Assembly (NCBI RefSeq): GCF_014303395.1 | Contig: NZ_CP060298.1 | Coordinates: forward strand, 5,351,001 to 5,415,000 | DNA length: 64,000 nt | Reading direction: 5' to 3' | Origin: Nakamurella sp. PAMC28650 | Lineage (GTDB): Bacteria; Actinomycetota; Actinomycetes; Mycobacteriales; Nakamurellaceae | Part shown: piece by piece, positions 25,912 to 36,417 of the stretch | Position numbering within the stretch: the first letter of the stretch is position 1 | Layout: every line of letters begins with the position of its first letter | Made by a program: the position numbers and the translations under genes | Notes under the pieces: generated by a model | Databases searched by the model: none | What the model was told of the DNA's origin: nothing | The model's input: the letters and a program-made list of their open reading frames with translations, nothing else

Positions 25912-26997
25912 TCACGCGACGGCCCCCCGAACCGAGCTGAGCGACGACCGGACGATCTGATTGCGGATCACACCCAGACCCTGCACCTCGGCTTCCACCA
26001 CATCGCCAGGTGAGAGAAAACTGTTGGTGCCCTGACCGACCCCGCCCGGTGTGCCGGTGGCCAGGATGTCACCGGGAATGAGTGTGGTCATGCGGGAGGC
26101 GAACTCGATCTGCTCCTCCGGGGTGAAGATGAGGTTGGAGGTGTTGCCGTCCTGCCGGGTCTGGCCGTTGACGGTCAACCGCAGCCGCAGGTCCAGATGG
26201 TCCGGCACGAACATGGCGGGCACGAGAACGGGTCCCATCGGCGCGAAGCCGTCGTGGCTCTTGCCGCCGAACCAATCCGAACGCAGGCGCTCCCGGTCGG
26301 GTCGGAACAGCAGGTTCCGAGCGGAGAAGTCGTTGGTGCTCATGTATCCGGCCACGTGGTGCAGTGCATCAGCTGACGAGACCCGCGTCGCGCGTCGACC
26401 GATGACGACGGCCAGCTCGACCTCCCAGTCCATCTCGGTGACCTCGGGTGGTATCTCGATGTCGTCGTACGGCCCGGTCAGCGAACTGGGCGCTTTCAGG
26501 AAGACGTAGGGGTGGGTGCCCTCACGCAACCCGTTGAATTCCCTGGACTGCGCCACCTCCCCCGGGTTGAAACCGAATCTCTGCGCGTCACGCATCTCCT
26601 TGACGTGATCGGCGTAGTTCTGCGCGGCGTACACCATCTTCGACGGCCGGGTGATCGGTGGCAGCAGCCGGACCCCGGAGCGCAGGACCCGCAGTCGCTC
26701 GTCGTCCAGGCCGACCTGCTCGATGAATGCGGCCACGAGGCAGAGCTTGTCGAGCGACCGATCCCAGTCCTCGAGCAGATCCATCATCCCGTAACGCGGT
26801 TCGTCCGGAGCCGGCGCCACACCCGCGGACTCGGCCGCCGAGCGGAGGTCGACGAGTTCGCCGCCGACGACCAGCGCGGGCCGTCCCCGATCACCCGGGA
26901 CACCCGGTCCCTGTGCCGCCACGGTGGCCAGGGCGAACCCGCTCAGCGGGTGCTCCCCCATCGACAGTGGCCGGCTCTGCCGGTCGGTGGTGGTCAT
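25912..26997 (-). CDS. Fumarylacetoacetate hydrolase-family protein
   Basis: FAH-family hydrolase of 361 residues, ATG 26997 with AGGAG 8 bases upstream. The C-terminal catalytic part shows KMVYAAQNYADHVKEM, the metal-binding EVELAVVIGRRA, GYMSTNDFSARNL and ATGTPGGVGQG. Members cleave C-C bonds of ring-fission products or hydrate and decarboxylate dienoates. Its start overlaps the amidohydrolase stop by one base (TGATG), so the two form an operon. It likely acts after the extradiol dioxygenase. Confidence 0.88.
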   Translation of the reverse strand: MTTTDRQSRPLSMGEHPLSGFALATVAAQGPGVPGDRGRPALVVGGELVDLRSAAESAGVAPAPDEPRYGMMDLLEDWDRSLDKLCLVAAFIEQVGLDDERLRVLRSGVRLLPPITRPSKMVYAAQNYADHVKEMRDAQRFGFNPGEVAQSREFNGLREGTHPYVFLKAPSSLTGPYDDIEIPPEVTEMDWEVELAVVIGRRATRVSSADALHHVAGYMSTNDFSARNLLFRPDRERLRSDWFGGKSHDGFAPMGPVLVPAMFVPDHLDLRLRLTVNGQTRQDGNTSNLIFTPEEQIEFASRMTTLIPGDILATGTPGGVGQGTNSFLSPGDVVEAEVQGLGVIRNQIVRSSLSSVRGAVA

Positions 26998-28043
26998 CAA
27001 GCGCTCCTGAGGATCTCGGTGGGTTGTCCGGCGGTCTCGGCAATCGGCAGGCGGAACAGACTGCGGGCATTGCCTTCCAGAACCTGCTGCCGGTCGGCAG
27101 CCGGCAGGTCGAGAGCATCGATCGCAGCGAGCGTCTCGGCCACGAACGTCGGGCCTCCGTCCTGGCAGAACGGCGCATCGGTTCCGAAGACGGATCGGTC
27201 GGGTCCGAAGAAGTCGTATCCGGCGCGGACTGCGGACTTGGAGCCGTTGAGTGCGGTGTCGGCGTAGAAGCGCCGATAGTGCTCGACGACCGGGGTGGTG
27301 ATCCCGGCCCGTACGGCCACCGGATTCGGGCCGCCGGGACCGGTGAAGATCTGCTGGAAACCCAACTCGATGCGCGCACCGAACGAGGGGATCATCCCGC
27401 CGAAATGGTGCAGGACGATCTTGATGTCCGGGAGCTCGTTGAAAATTCCGGAGTAGACCATCCGCGCCGCGAAGGCACTGGTCTCGTAGGGCCAGCCGAA
27501 GGTGAACCACACCTCGTCCGGTGAATCCAATTCGGTCGCGTAATCGGCCACCGCCGCGGTGCGAAACGGATGGACCAGCACCGGCAGGTCGCGCTGCGCC
27601 ATCTGCTGGAAGATCGGGCGGTAGAGCGGCCCGCTGACCGGAGCTCCCAGCACATTGGTGTAGATCTGGATGCCACGCGCTCCGAGCTCGGCATGCGCAT
27701 ACTCGAGTTCGGCCATGGCCAGTTCGAGGTCCGACATCGGCAGCACGGCCGTGAACGCCGGGAAACGGTCCGGATACCTGGCGCACAGTTTCGCCATCTC
27801 CTCGTTGGCGAGCCTGGCCAATTCGGCCGCCACTACCGGCGTTCCGAAGGTCTCCACCGGTGGATTCCCGAAGTTCAGGATCTGCTGCACACCGGGAAAC
27901 GGGGCCAACGATCGGAGTCTGGCGTCGATGTCCCACAGCTCCGGCAACCCGCCGAAGGCGGACAGTGCCGGAAGTCCTGGCTTCAGCTCCAGGAAGCGGG
28001 CCAGCACGGCCGGTGGCACGAAGTGGCTGAAGACATCGATCAT
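26997..28043 (-). CDS. Amidohydrolase-2 family protein (ACMSD-like)
   Basis: TIM-barrel metal-dependent hydrolase/decarboxylase of 348 residues. Candidate metal ligands are His in DVFSHFVPP near the N-terminus, His in LPVLVHPF, His-His in KIVLHHFGG and Asp in FGTDAPF. The usual first motif DxHxH is reduced to DVFSH, so one canonical His is absent. Relatives include aminocarboxymuconate semialdehyde decarboxylase and resorcylate decarboxylases. It heads a two-gene operon with the FAH protein; operator site 2 lies 41-54 bases upstream. Confidence 0.85.
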   Translation of the reverse strand: MIDVFSHFVPPAVLARFLELKPGLPALSAFGGLPELWDIDARLRSLAPFPGVQQILNFGNPPVETFGTPVVAAELARLANEEMAKLCARYPDRFPAFTAVLPMSDLELAMAELEYAHAELGARGIQIYTNVLGAPVSGPLYRPIFQQMAQRDLPVLVHPFRTAAVADYATELDSPDEVWFTFGWPYETSAFAARMVYSGIFNELPDIKIVLHHFGGMIPSFGARIELGFQQIFTGPGGPNPVAVRAGITTPVVEHYRRFYADTALNGSKSAVRAGYDFFGPDRSVFGTDAPFCQDGGPTFVAETLAAIDALDLPAADRQQVLEGNARSLFRLPIAETAGQPTEILRSA

Positions 28044-28083
28044 GGACAACCCGTCGGATCGGAAGCGGAGGAGACCCTACTGA

Positions 28084-28097
28084 CATTATGCATAATG
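28084..28097. promoter_or_regulatory. Probable GntR operator, site 2
   Basis: Perfect 14-bp palindrome CATTATGCATAATG between the amidohydrolase start and the end of the GntR gene. It is the longest of three related sites and lies where a repressor would block the amidohydrolase-FAH promoter. Confidence 0.8.
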
Positions 28098-28158
28098 CGC
28101 CGCAATGGCAAGAGGGTGTCGAGCCGCCATCGAAACTCATTCTTGAACGGGCGGAGCG

Positions 28159-28833
28159 TTACTTCCGGACGTGCGCGCGGCCACGCGCGCCCAGGCGCGC
28201 CTGCAGGGCCGAGACCCGGGTGGCCAGGTGCGCCAGCATGGCCTCGCCGGCCGCGTCGGCGTCCCTGGCCGCGATGGCCGCCACGATGGCGGCGTGCTCC
28301 CCGTGCGCCTCGCGGGCGCTGCTGGCGTCCACGCCCAGGAATGCGACGAATGAGGTGGTGGAGGACTGTTCGGCGACGATGAGTTCGGCGAGTCGCGCAT
28401 TGCCCGAAGCGGTCCCGATCTGCGCGTGGAACTGGGCGTTCAACTGCAGGAACGTCTTCTGCGACACCCGAGGCGCGTGCATCACCCTCATGGTGTCGGC
28501 GATAGCGGCCAGTTCCGGCTCGGACAGCCGGAGCGCAGCCATCCGGGCCGCCATCGACTCCAGTGCCCCGCGCACCTCGTACCCGTTCACCAGATCCTGC
28601 ATCGAGGGGCGGAACACCCGCACACCGCGGCGCCCCTCCCTCACCACCAGGCCCATGCGCTCCAGGATCTGGAACGCCTCGCGCACCGGCGTGCTGCTGA
28701 CGCCGAGGCGGGAGGCGATCTCGTTCTGCCGCAACGGCATTCCAGCGTCCAGGGCGCCCTGACGGATCTCGGCGCGCAATTGATCGGCCACTCTGGCGGC
28801 GACCGTCATCTGAAGCGCAGGTACGTCTGCCAT
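28159..28833 (-). CDS. GntR-family (FCD) transcriptional regulator
   Basis: Regulator of 224 residues, start ATG 28833 with GGAAAGG upstream. An N-terminal winged helix has IASRLGVSSTPVREAFQILERMGLV, cited here in two parts: IASRLGVSSTPVREAF and the wing VVREGRRGVRVF. The C-terminal helical FCD domain includes LNAQFHAQIG, where the His can take part in metal or effector binding. It lies in the middle of the catabolic island, downstream of the cyclase gene on the same strand. It probably binds the ATTATGCATAAT sites at all three island promoters. Confidence 0.9.
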   Translation of the reverse strand: MADVPALQMTVAARVADQLRAEIRQGALDAGMPLRQNEIASRLGVSSTPVREAFQILERMGLVVREGRRGVRVFRPSMQDLVNGYEVRGALESMAARMAALRLSEPELAAIADTMRVMHAPRVSQKTFLQLNAQFHAQIGTASGNARLAELIVAEQSSTTSFVAFLGVDASSAREAHGEHAAIVAAIAARDADAAGEAMLAHLATRVSALQARLGARGRAHVRK

Positions 28834-28905
28834 CGTCATCCTTTCCCGCACGTTCGGCGGCCGCTGCGGGTCCTGTCCGGCATCTGTCGGTCCGTTGAGC
28901 CTAGG

Positions 28906-29901
28906 TCAGGCGGCGGGCGTCCCGAGCGCGCCGGGCCGGATGGGAAAGGCCAGTGGCCTCATCGGCGCGGCCGTCGCGCCGCGCAGACGCAGGCCGGCAC
29001 CCACGAACACGAATTCCCAGAGCTTCGCCCGCGCCAGTTCTTCCAGATACGCGTTCTCCATGATGGGCACCCCGCACTCGCCGAGCAGGTAGGTGTGCAC
29101 CGGGTGCCAATTCTCCGGGTCCACCGTCGGCATCACCTCCAGCGCCACGTTGTCCGCGCCCACGATCATCGCCCCGGCCTCGGCCAGCAGGACCGCAGCC
29201 TCGCGGTCCAGGCCCGGTTCGTTCGCCAGGTACGCAGCGCCGCCCTGGTGCCAGCGCAACATCCGGCCGGTCCGGATCAGCACGACGTCACCGATGCGCA
29301 CCTGCGTACTCTGCGAGTCCAGCACCGATTGGATCTCGGCCGCGGTGATGCGGTGCGAATCCGGTAGGACGTCCACGCCGGCTGCCGCTGCGACATCCAA
29401 CAGGATCCCGCGTGCGATGACCGGCGGCTGCTTCTCGGCGCCGTTCTTCAGCCAGGTCCTGCTGCCCAGATCCCTGCCCGCCGTAAAACGGTTCCACACT
29501 GCGCCGTTCAGGCCGAAGTGATTGAGCGCGTCCAGGTGGGTACCGGTATGCGTGTACATCGAGATGCAGTCGCCCGAGTACGTCACCAGCTGGTTGTGCT
29601 GCTCCCCCAGACCCAGCACATTCTCGTTGACGCTGCCAGGCGGGGTGTGCGACATCCAGATCTGGTAGGTGGGATCACCCAGACCTGCCCAGGAAGGCAT
29701 ACCGACGTGATAGTCGACCGACAGGTCGAAGACGGTGCCGGCGTCGGCCGCCGCCAGCGCATCTGCCCGGGACCGATCGGTCATCAGATTCAGCATGCCG
29801 ATCTCGTCCTGCTCACCGAACGGACTCGAACTGACCCGATGCCGGGTGCTGCTCCGCGCGGCGATCTGGTCGAACCCGCAGTCGTAGGTCGGATTATGCA
29901 T
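28906..29901 (-). CDS. Cyclase-family (kynurenine formamidase-like) hydrolase
   Basis: PF04199-type metal hydrolase of 331 residues. The signature HTGTHLDALNHF is intact and supplies the metal-binding His and Asp residues. Relatives hydrolyse cyclic amides, lactones or formyl-kynurenine. I choose ATG 29901, which lies inside operator site 3. There is no ribosome site upstream, so the mRNA may be leaderless; GTG 29919 is an alternative. The GntR gene follows 72 bases on, possibly co-transcribed. Confidence 0.86.
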   Translation of the reverse strand: MHNPTYDCGFDQIAARSSTRHRVSSSPFGEQDEIGMLNLMTDRSRADALAAADAGTVFDLSVDYHVGMPSWAGLGDPTYQIWMSHTPPGSVNENVLGLGEQHNQLVTYSGDCISMYTHTGTHLDALNHFGLNGAVWNRFTAGRDLGSRTWLKNGAEKQPPVIARGILLDVAAAAGVDVLPDSHRITAAEIQSVLDSQSTQVRIGDVVLIRTGRMLRWHQGGAAYLANEPGLDREAAVLLAEAGAMIVGADNVALEVMPTVDPENWHPVHTYLLGECGVPIMENAYLEELARAKLWEFVFVGAGLRLRGATAAPMRPLAFPIRPGALGTPAA

Positions 29902-29904
29902 TAT
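29893..29904. promoter_or_regulatory. Probable GntR operator, site 3
   Basis: ATTATGCATTAT shares 10 of 12 bases with site 1 and keeps the palindromic core ATGCAT. It lies in the short gap between the divergent cyclase and enoyl-CoA hydratase genes and overlaps the cyclase start codon. It could control both directions. Confidence 0.72.
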
Positions 29905-29953
29905 GCTTTTGTAACACACCTGTCAACGGTGACACAGCTGGAAGGACTCCCCC

Positions 29954-30736
29954 GTGCCGGATCTCGAATACGACGTCAGCGAGCACATCGCCACCATCCG
30001 ACTCAATCGACCGCACAGGCGCAACGCGTTCACCCTTCCGATGGTCGATGAGTGGGCCGACCGCCTGATCCAGGCCCAGCGGGACGATTCGGTCCACGTC
30101 ATCGTGGTCACCGGAACGGGCGACGGCTTCTGCTCGGGGATCGACCTGTCGTGGCTGGACGACCAGGAACAGACTCCCCTGCAACACAAATTGACCCTCA
30201 CCGAACACATCCACCGCGTGCCGCTGGCCCTGGAATCGGTCGACAAGCCGGTGATCGCGGCCATCAACGGGCCCGCCGTCGGTGCCGGCCTGGACATGGC
30301 GCTGATGTGCGACCTGCGTCTGGCGTCCACCACCGCCAAGATGGCCATGACGTACGTCAAGGTCGGACTCGTGCCCGGTGACGGCGGTTGCTGGCTGCTG
30401 CCACGCCTGATCGGACTGCCCCGCGCCATGGAACTGCTGCTGACCGGCGACACCATCACCGCCGAACGCGCCGAACACCTCGGCATGATCAACAGCGTGC
30501 ACCAGCCGCAAGACCTGATGGACGCCACCTATGCCCTGGCGGCCAGGTTGGCTGCGGGACCGCAGATCGCGATGCGAATGATCAAGCGAGCCACCATCCA
30601 GTCGCAGCGGATCGACTTCCGCACCAGCCTGGACCTGGTGTCCTCCCACATGGGCGTCATCCGGAGCACACACGACTCCGTCGAGTCCTACCGGGCGGTC
30701 CTCGAGAAGCGAACCCCGGTGTTCCTGAACCGATGA
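29954..30736 (+). CDS. Enoyl-CoA hydratase/isomerase
   Basis: Crotonase-fold enzyme of 260 residues. NRPHRRNAFTLPMVDEW and GDGFCSGIDLSWL mark the N-terminal half. AAINGPAVGAGLDMALMCDLR forms the oxyanion hole and is followed by KVGLVPGDGGCWLLPRL, where the usual catalytic Glu position is Asp. It heads a two-gene operon, overlapping the CoA-transferase gene as ATGA. It is divergent from the cyclase gene across operator site 3. Confidence 0.92.
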   Translation: MPDLEYDVSEHIATIRLNRPHRRNAFTLPMVDEWADRLIQAQRDDSVHVIVVTGTGDGFCSGIDLSWLDDQEQTPLQHKLTLTEHIHRVPLALESVDKPVIAAINGPAVGAGLDMALMCDLRLASTTAKMAMTYVKVGLVPGDGGCWLLPRLIGLPRAMELLLTGDTITAERAEHLGMINSVHQPQDLMDATYALAARLAAGPQIAMRMIKRATIQSQRIDFRTSLDLVSSHMGVIRSTHDSVESYRAVLEKRTPVFLNR

Positions 30737-31875
30737 ACTCACCAGCCGGCACCGGGTTCCCATCCACCCCTACCCCAGCAGCACTTTCCGGACTGATGAT
30801 CGCCGACTTCTCCCGCATCCTCGCCGGGCCACTTGCCACCATGGTCCTGGCCGATCTGGGCGCCGAGGTGATCAAGATCGAACGACCCGACGGCGGGGAC
30901 GACACCCGCTCCTGGGGTCCGCCGTACGACAATGTCGGCAGGGCAACCTATTTCCTCAGCGTCAATCGCAACAAGACAAGGGAGACCATCGATCTCCGTT
31001 CGGCGGAGGGACGTGCCCGCGCACAGGGGATCGCGGTGGAAGCCGGCATCGTCGTGGAGAACTTCCGTCCGGGCGTGATGAGCCGCCTGGGCCTCGGCTA
31101 CGAAGAACTCCGCGCCCATCGGCCCGACCTGATCTATTGCTCCATCAGTGCTTTCGGATCCGGCCTTGGCGCAGATCTGCCTGGCTACGACCTCATCGTG
31201 CAGGCCGTCGGCGGGTTGATGAGCATCACCGGGGACCCCCTGGGCGAGCCCCAGAAAGTGGGGGTGGCAGTCGTCGACGTGATGGCCGGCCTCTATGCGA
31301 CGGTCGGCATCCTCGCCGCCGTCAGGCACCGCGAGCAGACCGGCCAGGGGCAGAAGGTCGAGGTCAACCTGCTCAGCGCACTCCTGGCCGGGTTGGTCAA
31401 CCAGTCCTCGGCCTACGTCGCAGGCGGGGTGATCGCGCAACGGCGCGGGAACGAGCACCCATCCATCGCACCGTATGAAACGCTGCCGACCGCCGACGGT
31501 CAGCTCGCCGTCGCCGTCGGCAACGACCGGCAGTTCGCCGCGCTCTGCTCCGTACTGGGTGCAGCCGAATTGGTCTCCGATCCACGATTCCTGACCAACA
31601 CTTCCCGGGTCGGCAACCGCGCCGCACTTCGCAGGGAGCTGAGTGGAAGGCTCGCCGAGCGCGGACGGCTTTCCTGGGCGGAAGCGTTGAGTGCAGCAGG
31701 TGTCCCAGCCGGACCTGTCAACGACATCGCCGGGGCCTTCGCACTGGCCGAATCCCTCGGACTGTCCCCCACCCACCCGCTGGAGGGGCAACAGACGGTC
31801 AGCAGCCCCATCGGGCTGTCTGTCACACCGGTCGCCTACCGACTGGCACCCCCGCCGAGTGGCGGCGCGCTGTAG
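30733..31875 (+). CDS. CaiB/BaiF-family CoA transferase
   Basis: Class III CoA transferase of 380 residues, ATG 30733. Typical segments are IADFSRILAGPLATMVLADL, GAEVIKIERPDGGDDTR, NRNKTRETIDLRS and LPGYDLIVQAVGGLMSITG, the last holding the catalytic Asp position. It probably loads a carboxylic acid of this pathway with CoA so that the adjacent hydratase can act. The 237 bases after it hold no recognised gene. Confidence 0.92.
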   Translation: MNSPAGTGFPSTPTPAALSGLMIADFSRILAGPLATMVLADLGAEVIKIERPDGGDDTRSWGPPYDNVGRATYFLSVNRNKTRETIDLRSAEGRARAQGIAVEAGIVVENFRPGVMSRLGLGYEELRAHRPDLIYCSISAFGSGLGADLPGYDLIVQAVGGLMSITGDPLGEPQKVGVAVVDVMAGLYATVGILAAVRHREQTGQGQKVEVNLLSALLAGLVNQSSAYVAGGVIAQRRGNEHPSIAPYETLPTADGQLAVAVGNDRQFAALCSVLGAAELVSDPRFLTNTSRVGNRAALRRELSGRLAERGRLSWAEALSAAGVPAGPVNDIAGAFALAESLGLSPTHPLEGQQTVSSPIGLSVTPVAYRLAPPPSGGAL

Positions 31876-32112: not shown

Positions 32113-32673
32113 TCAACCAACCACGAGGCGCAGGGGATGCTCGAGCAGCGCCAACAGTGCTGCCATCCATTCCGCCGCCTGGGCCCCGTCGACGGCCCGG
32201 TGATCGACGGACAGGGTCAGATGCATCATGTTCGCGGGTCGCACCTTCCCTTTGCGAACGGTGACCTCCGGACGGATCGCCCCGACCGCCAGGATGGAGG
32301 CCTGCGGCGGATTGATGATCGCGGCGAATTCCTGGACGCCGTAAATTCCGAGGTTGCTCACGGTGATGCTGCCCCCTTCCAACTGGTGCTGACGCAATTG
32401 ACCGGAGGCGGCCTGACCGACGAACTGCCTGACCGTCGCTCCGATCTCGCGGATCGAGCGGGCGTCTGCGGCACGGACCACCGGAGTGAGCAACCCGGTG
32501 GGAGCGGCAATCGCCACCGCAACGTCGACATCGGTGTAATGCCTGATCGTCTCGTCGTGGTAGCTCACGTTCAGCACCGGTACCAGCATGTGCGCCCGAG
32601 CCACCGCCTTGATGACGAAATCGTTGACCGAGACACGTCCCGAAACGTCCTGATTGATCTGGGCGCGAAGGTC
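32113..32673 (-). pseudogene. Dihydrolipoamide acyltransferase (E2), C-terminal fragment
   Basis: C-terminal catalytic half of a 2-oxo-acid dehydrogenase E2 subunit. It runs from DLRAQINQDVSGRVSVNDF to the stop and includes the catalytic motif DHRAVDGAQAAEW. The fragment ends abruptly at 32673 (in LLDLR), where plus-strand GH26 sequence begins 3 bases on. The matching upstream part is found on the plus strand ending at 35970. Joining the two there gives VDKLL-DLRAQ without any gap, so the gene was cut by an inversion. Lipoyl and subunit-binding domains are missing entirely. Confidence 0.88.
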
Positions 32674-32676
32674 TAG

Positions 32677-33237
32677 AAGTGGGGCAAGCCCGTCACCCTG
32701 CGGTTCGCGCACGAGATGAACGGCGACTGGTATCCGTGGGACGAGGGCGTCAACGGAAACACGGCCGGGCAGTACGTGCAGGCCTGGCGTCACGTCCACG
32801 ACCTGTTCGTCAGGGCCAGGGCGACGAACGTCTCGTGGATGTGGAGCCCGAACGTTCCGTACCAGGGTTCGCGTGCGCTCGCCGGCCTCTACCCGGGCGC
32901 AGCGTACGTCGACACGGTGGCGCTGGACGGCTACAACTTCGGCACCAGCCAGTCCGGGACGACCTGGATCGAACCCGACACCCTGTTCGCCGGCGGACTG
33001 TCCCAGCTGCGGGCGCTCGCGCCGCACAAGCCCATCGTCATCGGGGAGACCGCGTCGGCCGAAGCAGGCGGCGCCAAGAACAACTGGATCTCCAGCCTGG
33101 TGCCCTACCTGGCTGCACAATCGGACGTCACGGGCTTCTTCTGGTTCGACCAGAACAAGGAAACCGACTGGCGCATCGACAGTTCCAGCGCCTCGTCGGC
33201 CGCTTTCAATGCGGCCTTGGCCGCTCGCCGGCGGTAG
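32677..33237 (+). pseudogene. GH26 glycoside hydrolase, C-terminal fragment
   Basis: C-terminal 186 codons of a family 26 glycanase (mannanase-like). KWGKPVTLRFAHEMNGDWYP carries the acid/base Glu, and PIVIGETASAEAGG carries the nucleophile Glu. No start or signal peptide precedes it; the frame begins at the junction with E2. The N-terminal part with signal peptide lies on the minus strand at 35971-36417. Joining them gives WATALQ-KWGKPV in frame. Confidence 0.88.
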
Positions 33238-33243
33238 TACCGA

Positions 33244-33323
33244 TCACCGGTCACCCGGTCACCGGTCACCGGTCACCGGTCACCGGTCACCGGTCACCGG
33301 TCACCCGGTCACCCGGTCACCGG
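33244..33323. repeat. Tandem repeat of TCACCGG / TCACCCGG, 11 units
   Basis: Eight 7-bp and three 8-bp units run head to tail right after the GH26 stop. The stop codon and last residues of the TetR gene (33301) lie inside the array, so unit changes would alter its C-terminus. Each junction contains the palindrome ACCGGT. Confidence 0.92.
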
Positions 33324-33927
33324 TCGAGCGGTGCGGGGCCAGGCCGGCGACGTAGATGACCTTCAGTCGGTGGGCGGTGGTGGCCCAGTCCGGATCGGTC
33401 CCCAGTGGCTGGGCCAGCATCGCAGCGAACATGACGATGTCGACGGTGTCGGCGTCGGTCCGAATGGTGCCGTCATCGTGGCCGCGAGCCACGATCCGCC
33501 CCAGCGTGTCGTGGACCTGCCCGCGGAGCGCGAAGGTCTCGGCCGTGGTGATGGCCGGCCCGCCGTGCAGGGGGAGGGCCAGCTCGCCGTGTCTTGCGAT
33601 CGCACCGTCGAAGAACCGGGTGACGCTGTCGACACCGGACATGCCGGTGGATTCGGCTGTTCTGGCGTTGTCCAGCACCAGGTTGAACGACCGGCGGCTG
33701 ATCGCATCCAGCAGTGCCTCGCGAGCCGGGTAGGAGCGGTAGAGGGTGCCGATTCCGATCCCGGCATCGGCGGCGATGGTCGCCATCGGAACCCGGACAC
33801 CCTCACGCAGGACGGCGCTGGTCGCCGCAGCCAGTAACCTCTCCTGGTTGACCAGGGCGTCGGTTCGGTGCTGACGACGGGATTCCAGTGCCGACACCAC
33901 CCCGCTGCTGTCCACCATGGTGTTCAT
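33301..33927 (-). CDS. TetR-family transcriptional regulator
   Basis: Regulator of 208 residues, ATG 33927. The DNA-binding part is near residues 25-70: RLLAAATSAVLREGVRVPMA and AGIGIGTLYRSYPAREAL. A helical ligand domain follows. The last residues (RSTGDRVTG) are encoded by the tandem repeat. No target or effector is evident; the lipoprotein gene lies 72 bases upstream on the same strand. No clear ribosome site precedes the start. Confidence 0.85.
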   Translation of the reverse strand: MNTMVDSSGVVSALESRRQHRTDALVNQERLLAAATSAVLREGVRVPMATIAADAGIGIGTLYRSYPAREALLDAISRRSFNLVLDNARTAESTGMSGVDSVTRFFDGAIARHGELALPLHGGPAITTAETFALRGQVHDTLGRIVARGHDDGTIRTDADTVDIVMFAAMLAQPLGTDPDWATTAHRLKVIYVAGLAPHRSTGDRVTG

Positions 33928-33999
33928 TTTGCACTGATGGCTGACGCCCGCGTGACGAAACTTGCAGAATGATGACGATTACTGCCTGGCGGGTGTGGC

Positions 34000-34785
34000 T
34001 CAGGGTCCTGAGGTCACCGGGGCCGAAACGGCCGGGGGGATATGGGTGGGCATTGCACCACTGGCAAATGGCGGTGGCGTGATCCGCTGGTGGTCCTCGT
34101 GGATGTGAAAGCTCTTCTTCGCACGCGGACCGGTGCCACCGACCGAATAGAGTTCGATGTCCTGGGTGCGATCCCCCTGGTAGCAACCGAGTTCGGAGAG
34201 ATCCTGGGAGCCGTGCCAGGTGTAGGTCCCGTAGGAGCCCACCAATCCCGGGTTGTCCACCGAGAGAGCGAGACCGGTGGCATTGGCCAGTTCCCAGGAG
34301 ACGATCAGGTGATAGGTGCCGTCATCAGAGCTCAGGACGCATCCGGCCGACGCCGACACGAAACGTGGATTCGACGAGCTGCCTGATCCGCCGCCCCCTG
34401 ATCCGCCGCTCGATCCTGAGCCACCGCCGGATCCCCCGCCTGATTGCGAACGACGGGTGGTGGTCACGCCATCGGCAGTCGCCGTGCTCGAGGTCGGCGT
34501 GGTCGACGTCTGGGTGGTCGATGTCTCCGTTGTCGAATTCGCCGCGGCGGGAATCATCGTGCTCAGGGCAACGGAAGCAGTTGCGCTGCCCAGGGTCTCA
34601 CCCGCGGCGGCCCCACTGACCGGCGTCGAGCCAAGTGCGCTCAACGAGGCGGATGCACCGCCGGAAGCGGTGCCGAGCGACTGCTGGCCCGCCACGGTCG
34701 TGCCGCAGGCGGCCAGAGCGAGAATGGTCAGGACCCCGATGGTGAGGCCACCGAACGTACGTATCATGCGGTCTGTGCGGTTCAT
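34000..34785 (-). CDS. Secreted lipoprotein with Thr/Ser- and Gly/Ser-rich linkers
   Basis: Protein of 261 residues, ATG 34785 with AGGAG 8 bases upstream. The signal peptide ends in the lipobox LAAC, predicting a lipid anchor. A Ser/Thr-rich stretch (TTETSTTQTSTTPTSST) and a Gly/Ser-rich stretch lead to a compact C-terminal domain of about 110 residues. That domain contains two cysteines (AGCVLSSDDG, LGCYQGDRTQ) and resembles an Ig-like or carbohydrate-binding fold, though I cannot name the family. Confidence 0.7.
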   Translation of the reverse strand: MNRTDRMIRTFGGLTIGVLTILALAACGTTVAGQQSLGTASGGASASLSALGSTPVSGAAAGETLGSATASVALSTMIPAAANSTTETSTTQTSTTPTSSTATADGVTTTRRSQSGGGSGGGSGSSGGSGGGGSGSSSNPRFVSASAGCVLSSDDGTYHLIVSWELANATGLALSVDNPGLVGSYGTYTWHGSQDLSELGCYQGDRTQDIELYSVGGTGPRAKKSFHIHEDHQRITPPPFASGAMPTHIPPAVSAPVTSGP

Positions 34786-35130
34786 CAATCGCTCCTGGGC
34801 TGAAGGGTTGGAGACGGGTCATCAAGGTGTCATCGATGGCAGGGGCAGAAAATGAGTGTGGCAGCGCAACGGTCGTCGGGACGGTGGAACCGTCGTATCC
34901 GATGGAACTCCGATGACGTATCGGATGCTGTGTTGATGCACCTCGAGCAGATCCGGCCGGGACCTTTGTTGTGATGGACGCCGCTGGCCGTTGCGGGTTG
35001 CGGAGGGGTCGGCAATTTCGGTGGCTCGCGGGACGGCTGGCCCTCGAGGACGGCCGGGATGTCCCTGCTGCTCGTGATGAAGCGTTCGACCATCGCCCCA
35101 GGCGTGCCCCAGAACGGGCGGCGCGAAGTC
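34786..35130. other. Intergenic region without a recognised gene
   Basis: These 345 bases between the lipoprotein start and the LacI stop contain no frame with family signatures. The region lies inside the inverted segment. It probably holds the lipoprotein promoter. Confidence 0.5.
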
Positions 35131-35781
35131 CTACGGTGAAGTGGCCGGCCCGGTGGTACCGCGGACCACCAGCTCGACCGGAATCATGGCCGGCGTGGCA
35201 GGAACGGCATCCGGCGTGCCGATCCACGCCAGAAGCGTCCGGGCTGCCGCTGCGCCCATGTCGGTGAGGGGCACGTGCACGGTGGTCAGCGGAGGGCTCA
35301 GCTTGCGCATGAACGGGAGGTCGTTGAAGCCGGTGATCGAGTAGTCCGCAGGACAGCGCAGTCCGACCGTCGCCAGGAGATCCATCGCCCCGAGGGCGAG
35401 CAGGTCGTTGGCTGCAACGATGGCGGTGAAAGATCTGCGCGCGTCGAGCAGCCGTTGCGCGCCACCGATACCGGCCTCCTCGGAATAGCCAGAGCATTCG
35501 ATCACGGCGGAGCGTCGGGGCGGTACCTCGTACTCGCGCAGGGCCGACCGGAAAGCGCTGACCCGGGCCCGGCCGGTCGACGTGTCGGACGGGCCGGCCA
35601 GGTGCACGATGTCGCGGTGTCCCGAGCGCACCAGGTGCTCGACGCACAGACGTGCGCCGCGCTGGTCGTCCGCGCCGACGAACGGCAACGCGGTGCGGGC
35701 CGTCCGACGGTTGACCAGTACCGTCGGAACGCCCGAGACGGCGATCGCGGCAATGGCGGCGATGGCCGGCGCGCAGTTCTC
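35131..35781 (-). pseudogene. LacI-family regulator lacking its N-terminal half
   Basis: Sugar-binding half of a LacI-type regulator. Recognisable segments are VSGVPTVLVNRR, GADDQRGARLCVEHLVRSGH, FTAIVAANDLLALGAMDLL, ITGFNDLPFMRKLSPPLTTV and MGAAAARTLLAWI. The helix-turn-helix and the first part of the effector domain, about 120 residues, are absent. The frame continues upstream to about 35859 but into sequence that reads as an E2 linker on the other strand. The upper boundary given is approximate. It cannot bind DNA as it stands. Confidence 0.78.
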
Positions 35782-35970
35782 TGCGCCGACGGACGGGGGC
35801 CCATCCGAACCTCTCCAGCCGGTGATCGGATCGGCCCCGCCCACCCCGGTGGGGTACACCGACCGGGCTCTGTCCCGTCAACGCCGGATGATGCTGCGCG
35901 GCTGTCCACGAGCAAGCAGACGATTCCGCATTTCTACCTGCGTGGGGTCGCCCGCGTCGACAAGCTGCTA
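35782..35970 (+). pseudogene. Dihydrolipoamide acyltransferase (E2), upstream fragment
   Basis: Plus-strand remnant of the E2 gene whose 3' part is at 32113-32673. It begins in Pro/Ala linker-like sequence (left edge approximate) and reads YTDRALSRQRRM. After a one-base deletion following 35892 it continues AARLSTSKQTIPHFYLRG and VDKLL, the start of the acyltransferase domain. It ends at CTA 35968-35970, exactly where GH26 minus-strand sequence begins. The frameshift shows decay beyond the inversion itself, unless it is a sequence error. Confidence 0.8.
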
Positions 35971-36417
35971 CTGCAGCGCCGTCGCCCAGGAGTTCAGATG
36001 GGAGTCGAGACGCCCGGCGATGATGTTGCGCAGCGCGTACGGCGACTGGTCGGTGGCGCCCCACTTCCACGGTTCCCAGGTGATGACGACCGACTGGCCC
36101 CGCTTGCTCATCGCATCCAGGCCCGCGATGGGCGCTGCCTGCACGAAATCGCTGTAGTCCAGCACCATCGACGGGCTCTCGCCGACCGTCTTGGCGAGGG
36201 CGTCCAGTTCGGCGGCGCCGCCCAGACCGTTGGGCGTGGTGACGCCGAACCTCAGCCGGGCGGTGCTGATGCGAGCGGGCTGGACCTGTGCGGTCCGGGC
36301 CGAGGTCGTCCTGGCGGCCGGCCCCGGCGTGACAGCGGCCGCGGTGCCGGCGATGGTGGACGTCAAACCGACTGCCAGCGCCAGGATCACGAGGGGCTTG
36401 AGGAGTGAAATGCGCAT
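35971..36417 (-). pseudogene. GH26 glycoside hydrolase, N-terminal fragment
   Basis: N-terminal 149 codons: signal peptide (LLKPLVILALAVGL, cleavage near GTAAA), then GH26-type sequence FGVTTPNGLGG, VLDYSDFVQAAPIAG and VVITWEPWKWGA. It stops at TAG (35968-35970), supplied by the inversion junction. The missing catalytic half is on the plus strand at 32677-33237. Both active-site glutamates are in that other half, so this fragment alone cannot be active. Confidence 0.88.

Follow-up and report, generated by a model that had tools for sequence, protein, structure and literature searches.

A 3.3-kb segment of the Nakamurella sp. PAMC28650 chromosome (approximately 32,674-35,970 of the window, the whole stretch of 64,000 nucleotides analysed) is inverted, and its ends fall within the genes encoding a GH26 glycanase and an E2 acyltransferase (Table 1). 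PAMC28650 is a glacier bacterium with a chromosome of 5,629,850 bp sequenced by PacBio. We favour, with a probability of roughly 80%, a history in which a deletion truncated the E2 gene and the gene of a LacI-type regulator, and in which a two-break inversion, following the deletion or joint with it, inactivated GH26. Four points can be read in the nucleotide sequence: the inversion of the order, the form that both genes had ancestrally, the duplication of a triplet and the truncation of E2 and LacI.

Table 1 Features of the rearranged locus (positions in the window).
Feature	Position	Strand	Evidence and remarks
E2 C-terminal 186 codons and stop (2-oxoacid dehydrogenase complex)	32113..32673	-	PF00198, E 5.5e-60, profile 44-231; outside the inverted segment
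TAG, joint 1, second copy of the E2 triplet CTA	32674..32676		3-bp duplication; no extra codon in the E2 relatives examined
GH26 C-terminal part	32677..33237	+	PF02156, E 1.9e-12; inside the inverted segment; continues P0001 after residue 149
7-bp tandem array ACCGGTC, 12 copies	33239..33325		Directly after the GH26 stop codon
TetR-family regulator	33301..33927	-	PF00440, E 4.7e-6; within the inverted segment
Small Ser/Thr-rich lipoprotein, probably secreted	34000..34788	-	ORF within the inverted segment; type judged by eye; no match of the product in the Pfam scan
LacI-type regulator, C-terminal part	35131..35745	-	PF13377, E 3.3e-32; ORF extends to 35859 through antisense E2 sequence
LacI::E2 joint, putative deletion, approximate	35729..35745		E2 match from 35729; LacI match from ORF residue 39, ~35745
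E2 remnant, ~80 codons	35729..35970	+	P0122 residues about 153-233, two frames
CTA, joint 2, first copy of the duplicated E2 triplet	35968..35970		E2 relatives examined
GH26 N-terminal 149 codons	35971..36417	-	P0001 residues 1-149, 1 difference; outside the inverted segment

Joints within the GH26 and E2 genes

The split genes and exact joints reported in the original prediction were confirmed, including its four coordinates (E2 ending at 32673 on the minus strand and at 35970 on the plus strand; GH26 starting from 32677 on the plus strand and from 35971 on the minus strand) and the presence of TAG at 32674-32676 and CTA at 35968-35970. The GH26 halves lie on opposite strands, 2.7 kb apart, and form no single continuous reading frame. 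The two halves come from a single GH26 glycanase (PF02156) with 99% identity to the intact P0001 (335 amino acids, 3 differences); unlike other genes of the family, this one is interrupted by the inversion, and neither half encodes a complete enzyme. The C-terminal half scored 47.6 bits with PF02156 (cut-off 20.2; 55 bits for P0001), and the N-terminal part alone gave no Pfam match. The intact E2 relative, P0122 (419 amino acids), shows 1 difference over the 186 residues of the C-terminal part, which scored 203.1 bits with PF00198 (cut-off 23) in a match starting at profile position 44; the residues preceding this position are encoded in the remnant near 35.9 kb (the domain corresponds to residues 195-417 of P0122).

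The comparison with intact genes in relatives, proposed along with the original prediction, bore it out as regards the continuity of the two genes: proteins were continuous across the joints, with 0 inserted residues, in all 120 GH26 relatives (the best-scoring 120 of 1527 found) and all 118 E2 relatives (the best-scoring 118 of 7305 found). P0001 and P0122 run uninterrupted over the respective joints at 99% identity, which excludes a chance origin of the joints; one inversion with both breakpoints intragenic and exact joints is supported. The inversion looks recent, as had been suggested, because these relatives differ at only 3/335 (GH26) and 1/186 (E2) residues. P0001 and P0122 are found on different contigs (the longest of 80.7 kb and 2.6 kb, respectively) and may come from different strains; a search of 16 further genomes of the genus gave no match above 90% to either. 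The genome search covered 61 genomes, 44 of which gave any match, many of them short, and the stretches of 8 of them and of PAMC28650 itself were examined; the E2 scan of genome contigs considered the best 80 of 554 confirmed relatives, all with identities of 52% or less. An unbroken GH26 paralogue is present elsewhere on the PAMC28650 chromosome, at 3.04 Mb; the main text of the genome paper (PMC9789016) does not mention GH26.

No residue is inserted at the E2 joint in the relatives examined, and CTA/TAG is therefore a 3-bp duplication of E2 sequence. The triplet had been attributed to a staggered break or microhomology; the stagger stands, and microhomology at the inversion joints is ruled out by P0122 and 118 further E2 relatives, all without the extra codon. 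As the intact relatives are near-identical, the break geometry is directly readable from the letters and appears to be a 3-nt stagger in E2 and a blunt end in GH26, joined without inverted repeats. Reversing the segment in the sequence restores GH26 exactly and in frame; the same literal reversal adds one leucine to E2 because the triplet is present twice, so that the restoration without loss originally described applies to GH26 alone.

Truncation of E2 and LacI

The view of E2 as a whole gene cut by the inversion was not sustained: the loss of its N-terminal part traces to another joint, LacI::E2, about 235 bp from the inversion joint at 35.970 kb, and the remnant contains a frameshift. At the locus, matches to P0122 were confined to its residues 153-239 and 231-419; the lipoyl (PF00364) and E3-binding (PF02817) domains, both present in P0122, are missing there, and a search of the own genome revealed no close copy of the E2 N-terminal part elsewhere. 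The frameshift, at about 35.89 kb, divides the remnant between two frames and may be a sequencing indel error. The place of the missing part is taken by the antisense C-terminal part of LacI, whose similarity to the full-length regulator P0242 begins at residue 138 of the latter; the DNA-binding domain (PF00356), present in P0242, is missing from P0241, the product of the LacI fusion ORF. With an upstream part of only about 80 codons, in two frames and adjoining a truncated LacI gene, E2 is not restored as a gene by the reversal. Flipping the segment back would rejoin GH26 without regaining a working E2, and E2 was probably dead before the inversion.

Jatrophihabitans telluris (G032) carries whole LacI (minus) and E2 (plus) genes, divergent and separated by about 12 kb that contains further catabolic ORFs; its E2 near LacI is 60% identical to the PAMC28650 E2 C-terminal part, and its LacI 70% identical to the LacI part. 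In contrast, the PAMC28650 E2 is devoid of the lipoyl and E3-binding domains, frameshifted and split by the inversion, and E1 was not found. Queries of the PAMC28650 genome with the J. telluris LacI, E2 and E1 recovered, beyond the locus, only paralogues (identities of at most 35%, 34% and 34%, respectively). A larger inversion or translocation with its distal breakpoint at the LacI::E2 joint was also considered and rejected, the missing LacI and E2 halves not being found elsewhere with these queries.

Origin of the rearrangement

In the favoured history, an ancestral catabolic module with divergent LacI and E2 genes would have undergone a deletion of roughly 12 kb (size taken from J. telluris) that took the start of both genes and created the LacI::E2 fusion point, the E2 remnant also becoming frameshifted. 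Later, or as part of that event, both strands would have been broken at two places, leaving ends staggered by 3 nt in the E2 remnant and blunt ends in the intact neighbouring GH26 gene. The 3.3-kb segment freed in this way would have been rejoined in reverse once the staggered ends were filled in, thereby inactivating GH26. We infer the nature and size of the truncation (a deletion of roughly 12 kb), the succession of the events, the breaks and the enzymes.

Within 30 bases of the joints, inverted matches reached 7 bp at most, a length that 12 of 60 random pairs matched or surpassed; within 100 and 200 bases the maximum was 10 bp (10 of 60 and 30 of 60, respectively), i.e. there was no inverted homology beyond chance at any of the three distances; a 12-bp direct match was found near the joints, a length reached by only 1/60 and 3/60 random pairs. 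The PAMC28650 genome harbours genes for Ku (8.9e-49) and the LigD polymerase (3.9e-85, searched with the polymerase domain model); of 14 control genomes, only 1 had a match to Ku and only 1 to the LigD polymerase. Given their presence, end joining is the likeliest mechanism, and Ku/LigD the likeliest agent of the rejoining. The joints resemble the products of Ku/LigD non-homologous end joining, in which evident homology is likewise lacking and staggered ends receive short fill-ins, and both genes are present; they differ in that a simple rejoined break is seen there, whereas here there are two breaks and a flipped segment, the mechanism being deduced from the scar.

The LacI::E2 joint and the inversion might have arisen together, in a single multi-break repair or by template switching. 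Both joints lie in the same remnant, about 235 bp apart, which agrees with such an event, to which we assign a small chance; weighing slightly against it, the cluster of the LacI fusion ORF (P0241) contains 4 sequences on 2 contigs and that of the inversion-specific E2 ORF (P0121) 1 sequence on 1 contig, a weak hint that the LacI fusion exists without the inversion. This possibility is a sub-case of the deletion and inversion favoured here, and the likelihoods of the two overlap. Somewhat more doubtful is a shattering-like Ku/LigD repair, in which several breaks spread over about 16 kb (12 kb of them deduced from J. telluris) would have been joined at once; one end of the inversion, the LacI::E2 joint and the frameshift, which share a 250-bp stretch of the remnant, would be its traces.

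PacBio assemblies can contain indel errors, and the frameshift nearby might be taken as a sign that the inverted order is a read chimera or a misassembled segment absent from the cell. Such an artefact is unlikely: according to the genome paper, the chromosome is closed in a single scaffold from a PacBio library with 20-kb inserts (PMC9789016), against a segment of 3.3 kb. The ends are free of inverted repeats, and a 3-bp duplication exact to the base is compatible with a biological joint. Amino-acid substitutions set the intact relatives apart, so that they look like other strains, unlike reads of the isolate assembled otherwise.

IS insertion often yields a short target duplication, and one triplet is duplicated here; an inversion driven by an element later lost is nevertheless very improbable, and we rejected it: none of the six proteins scanned matched a transposase family, inverted matches at the ends were at chance level, and the GH26 codons are exact at the second breakpoint, with no space for remains of an element. 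Least credible of all is a phase-variable inverton, in which a site-specific recombinase flips the segment and switches GH26 on and off: the exact breakpoints, the in-frame rejoining of GH26 and a short segment flipped between two genes are shared with such systems, but invertons are flanked by inverted repeats of 10-40 nt (PMC11892184), repeats beyond chance are absent here, no recombinase family was matched among the six proteins scanned, and flipping again would not remove the additional triplet from E2, so that a clean flip-back is not expected.

Gene decay and small inversions in actinobacteria

The inversion is a very clean, recent-looking instance of ordinary gene loss and decay, and annotators should be warned that the E2, LacI and GH26 ORFs at this locus are gene remains. 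If the shattering-like repair were true, one piece lost and another flipped would make it a small bacterial analogue of chromothripsis. The locus offers a base-resolved scar of a spontaneous inversion for which near-identical intact relatives are available, and such scars could help to estimate the share of small inversions in actinobacterial chromosomes that is due to end joining as opposed to repeats.

Ancestral state of the split genes

Re-examination of the sequence confirmed the positions originally predicted for the four fragments of the GH26 glycanase and E2 acyltransferase genes at the ends of the inverted 3.3-kb segment. The GH26 N-terminal half had no Pfam match on its own; in intact GH26 genes, the region that it matches precedes the one matched by the C-terminal half. 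The 7-bp unit ACCGGTC is repeated 12 times at 33239-33325, directly after the GH26 stop codon (33235-33237), reaching into the end of a TetR gene.

Gene fragments at the inversion joints and end-joining matches in the same genome (G000)
Feature	Position	Strand	Evidence
E2 C-terminal part	32113-32673	minus	PF00198, E 5.5e-60
GH26 C-terminal part	32677-33237	plus	PF02156, E 1.9e-12
E2 upstream piece	35,729-35,970	plus	~ residues 153-233 of P0122
GH26 N-terminal part	35971-36417	minus	matches intact GH26 genes
LigD-polymerase model matches	G000:C1 656413, 1942479, 3803749 (outside the window)		TIGR02778

The query reading through both GH26 halves retrieved P0001, an intact relative (335 aa), at 99% identity over its full length; residue by residue, three positions differed and nothing interrupted the alignment across the joint. 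The search with the C-terminal part of the window's E2 ranked, after its own inversion-specific E2 ORF (P0121), the intact E2 P0122 (419 aa; lipoyl, E3-binding and catalytic domains), with one difference in 186 residues. The next relatives stood at 75% (GH26) and 69% (E2). Both genes have an intact relative that is continuous across the joint, and the main proposal of one inversion splitting GH26 and E2 sequence holds; as far as sequence can tell, the inversion is real. No inserted residue was found at the GH26 joint position in the best-scoring 120 of 1527 relatives (0/120), nor at the E2 joint position in the best-scoring 120 of 7305 (0/118, omitting P0121 and with P0122 as the reference). 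Judged by eye, three genomic GH26 loci (the own paralogue, G001 and G011) and six genomic E2 loci (G003, G010, G032, G036, G040 and G049) were also consistent with an uninserted joint. Within the genus, 17 genomes including the own one were searched: 6 contained GH26 relatives and all 17 E2-type proteins. Matches above 90% to GH26/E2 were confined to the own genome, so none of the others searched showed the uninverted locus.

Scar and possible end joining

The E2 triplet CTA is present at both joints (32674-32676, as TAG, and 35968-35970), and no base was lost or gained at the GH26 breakpoint. CTA/TAG had been ascribed to a staggered break or microhomology; judged from the alignments, it is a 3-bp duplication rather than shared microhomology, because the E2 relatives lack an extra codon at that point, which fits the staggered break. 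The longest inverted matches between the joint surroundings were 7, 10 and 10 bp at 30, 100 and 200 bases each side, equalled or exceeded in 12/60, 10/60 and 30/60 random pairs at the same distance. The longest direct matches (6, 12 and 12 bp) were reached in 42/60, 1/60 and 3/60, the single pair referring to the 12-bp match within 100 bases around 32675 and 35970; direct-repeat recombination does not produce inversions.

Two breaks, one 3-nt staggered and then filled in, the other blunt, with the ends joined in reverse order, would leave exactly the observed scar, with the E2 triplet duplicated and no base lost or gained in GH26. The genome encodes Ku (PF02735, 8.9e-49) and LigD polymerase (three TIGR02778 matches, the strongest at 3.9e-85), so end joining is a possible agent of the inversion, and the simplest one. 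Each of the two models matched 1 of 14 control genomes, that of Bacillus subtilis.

The E2 remnant and the LacI joint

E2 was not, as originally proposed, a whole gene cut in two, the remnant being also reduced by another lesion (the LacI::E2 joint). The remnant occupies two frames (matches to P0122 residues 153-208 and 206-239), which places a frameshift at ~35.89 kb. The opposite strand upstream of the remnant encodes a LacI regulator of which only the C-terminal part is left: it starts abruptly, resembles the full-length relative P0242 from residue 138 onward and lacks the DNA-binding domain. This LacI ORF (35131-35859) is fused to antisense E2 sequence.

Jatrophihabitans telluris (G032) has complete LacI (minus) and E2 (plus) genes, with ~12 kb between them. 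By eye, we take the intervening ORFs to encode a branched-chain amino-acid type ABC transporter, a 3-hydroxyisobutyrate-type dehydrogenase, a peptidase-like protein, an aldehyde dehydrogenase, a glyoxalase-like protein and a fused E1. The region (L027, 4542-18345) resembles a catabolic module, with LacI divergent from a transporter/dehydrogenase/E1-E2 cluster, and a single 726-aa ORF seems to combine E1 alpha and beta. Same-sized contigs (29,388, 50,386, 56,751 and 331,220) occur among the listed relatives of both LacI and E2, a hint that the two genes may often be linked. The LacI::E2 joint would result from a deletion between them. Own-genome searches with the G032 LacI, E2 and E1 found no close copies of the lost LacI/E2 halves outside the locus, the paralogues there reaching at most 35%, 34% and 34%, respectively. 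Beside the E2 remnant, 26997-31875 carries genes for an amidohydrolase, a GntR/FCD regulator, a cyclase, an enoyl-CoA hydratase and a CoA-transferase, perhaps another part of an old catabolic region. The window (5,351,001-5,415,000 on the one 5,629,850-bp contig, 100% complete, CP060298.1) has a GC content of 68.1%; a value of 67.9% is stated for the Nakamurella sp. PAMC28650 genome (PMC9789016).

Order of events and consequences

P0241, the LacI fusion ORF, represents a cluster of four sequences on two contigs, the own one included, and P0121 a cluster of one sequence on one contig. These sizes hint at a LacI fusion that occurs without the inversion and predates it, and a fusion like LacI::E2 may exist outside this record. 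One complex event producing both the LacI::E2 joint and the inversion fits as well, the joints at ~35.735 and ~35.970 kb being only ~235 bp apart. E2 was probably dead before the inversion. Compared with P0001, both GH26 halves are free of stops and frameshifts, so the GH26 gene was probably whole when split and most likely inactivated by the inversion; an unbroken GH26 paralogue lies at 3.04 Mb of the same chromosome. The inversion, clean and probably recent, is an instructive yet ordinary example of genome decay.
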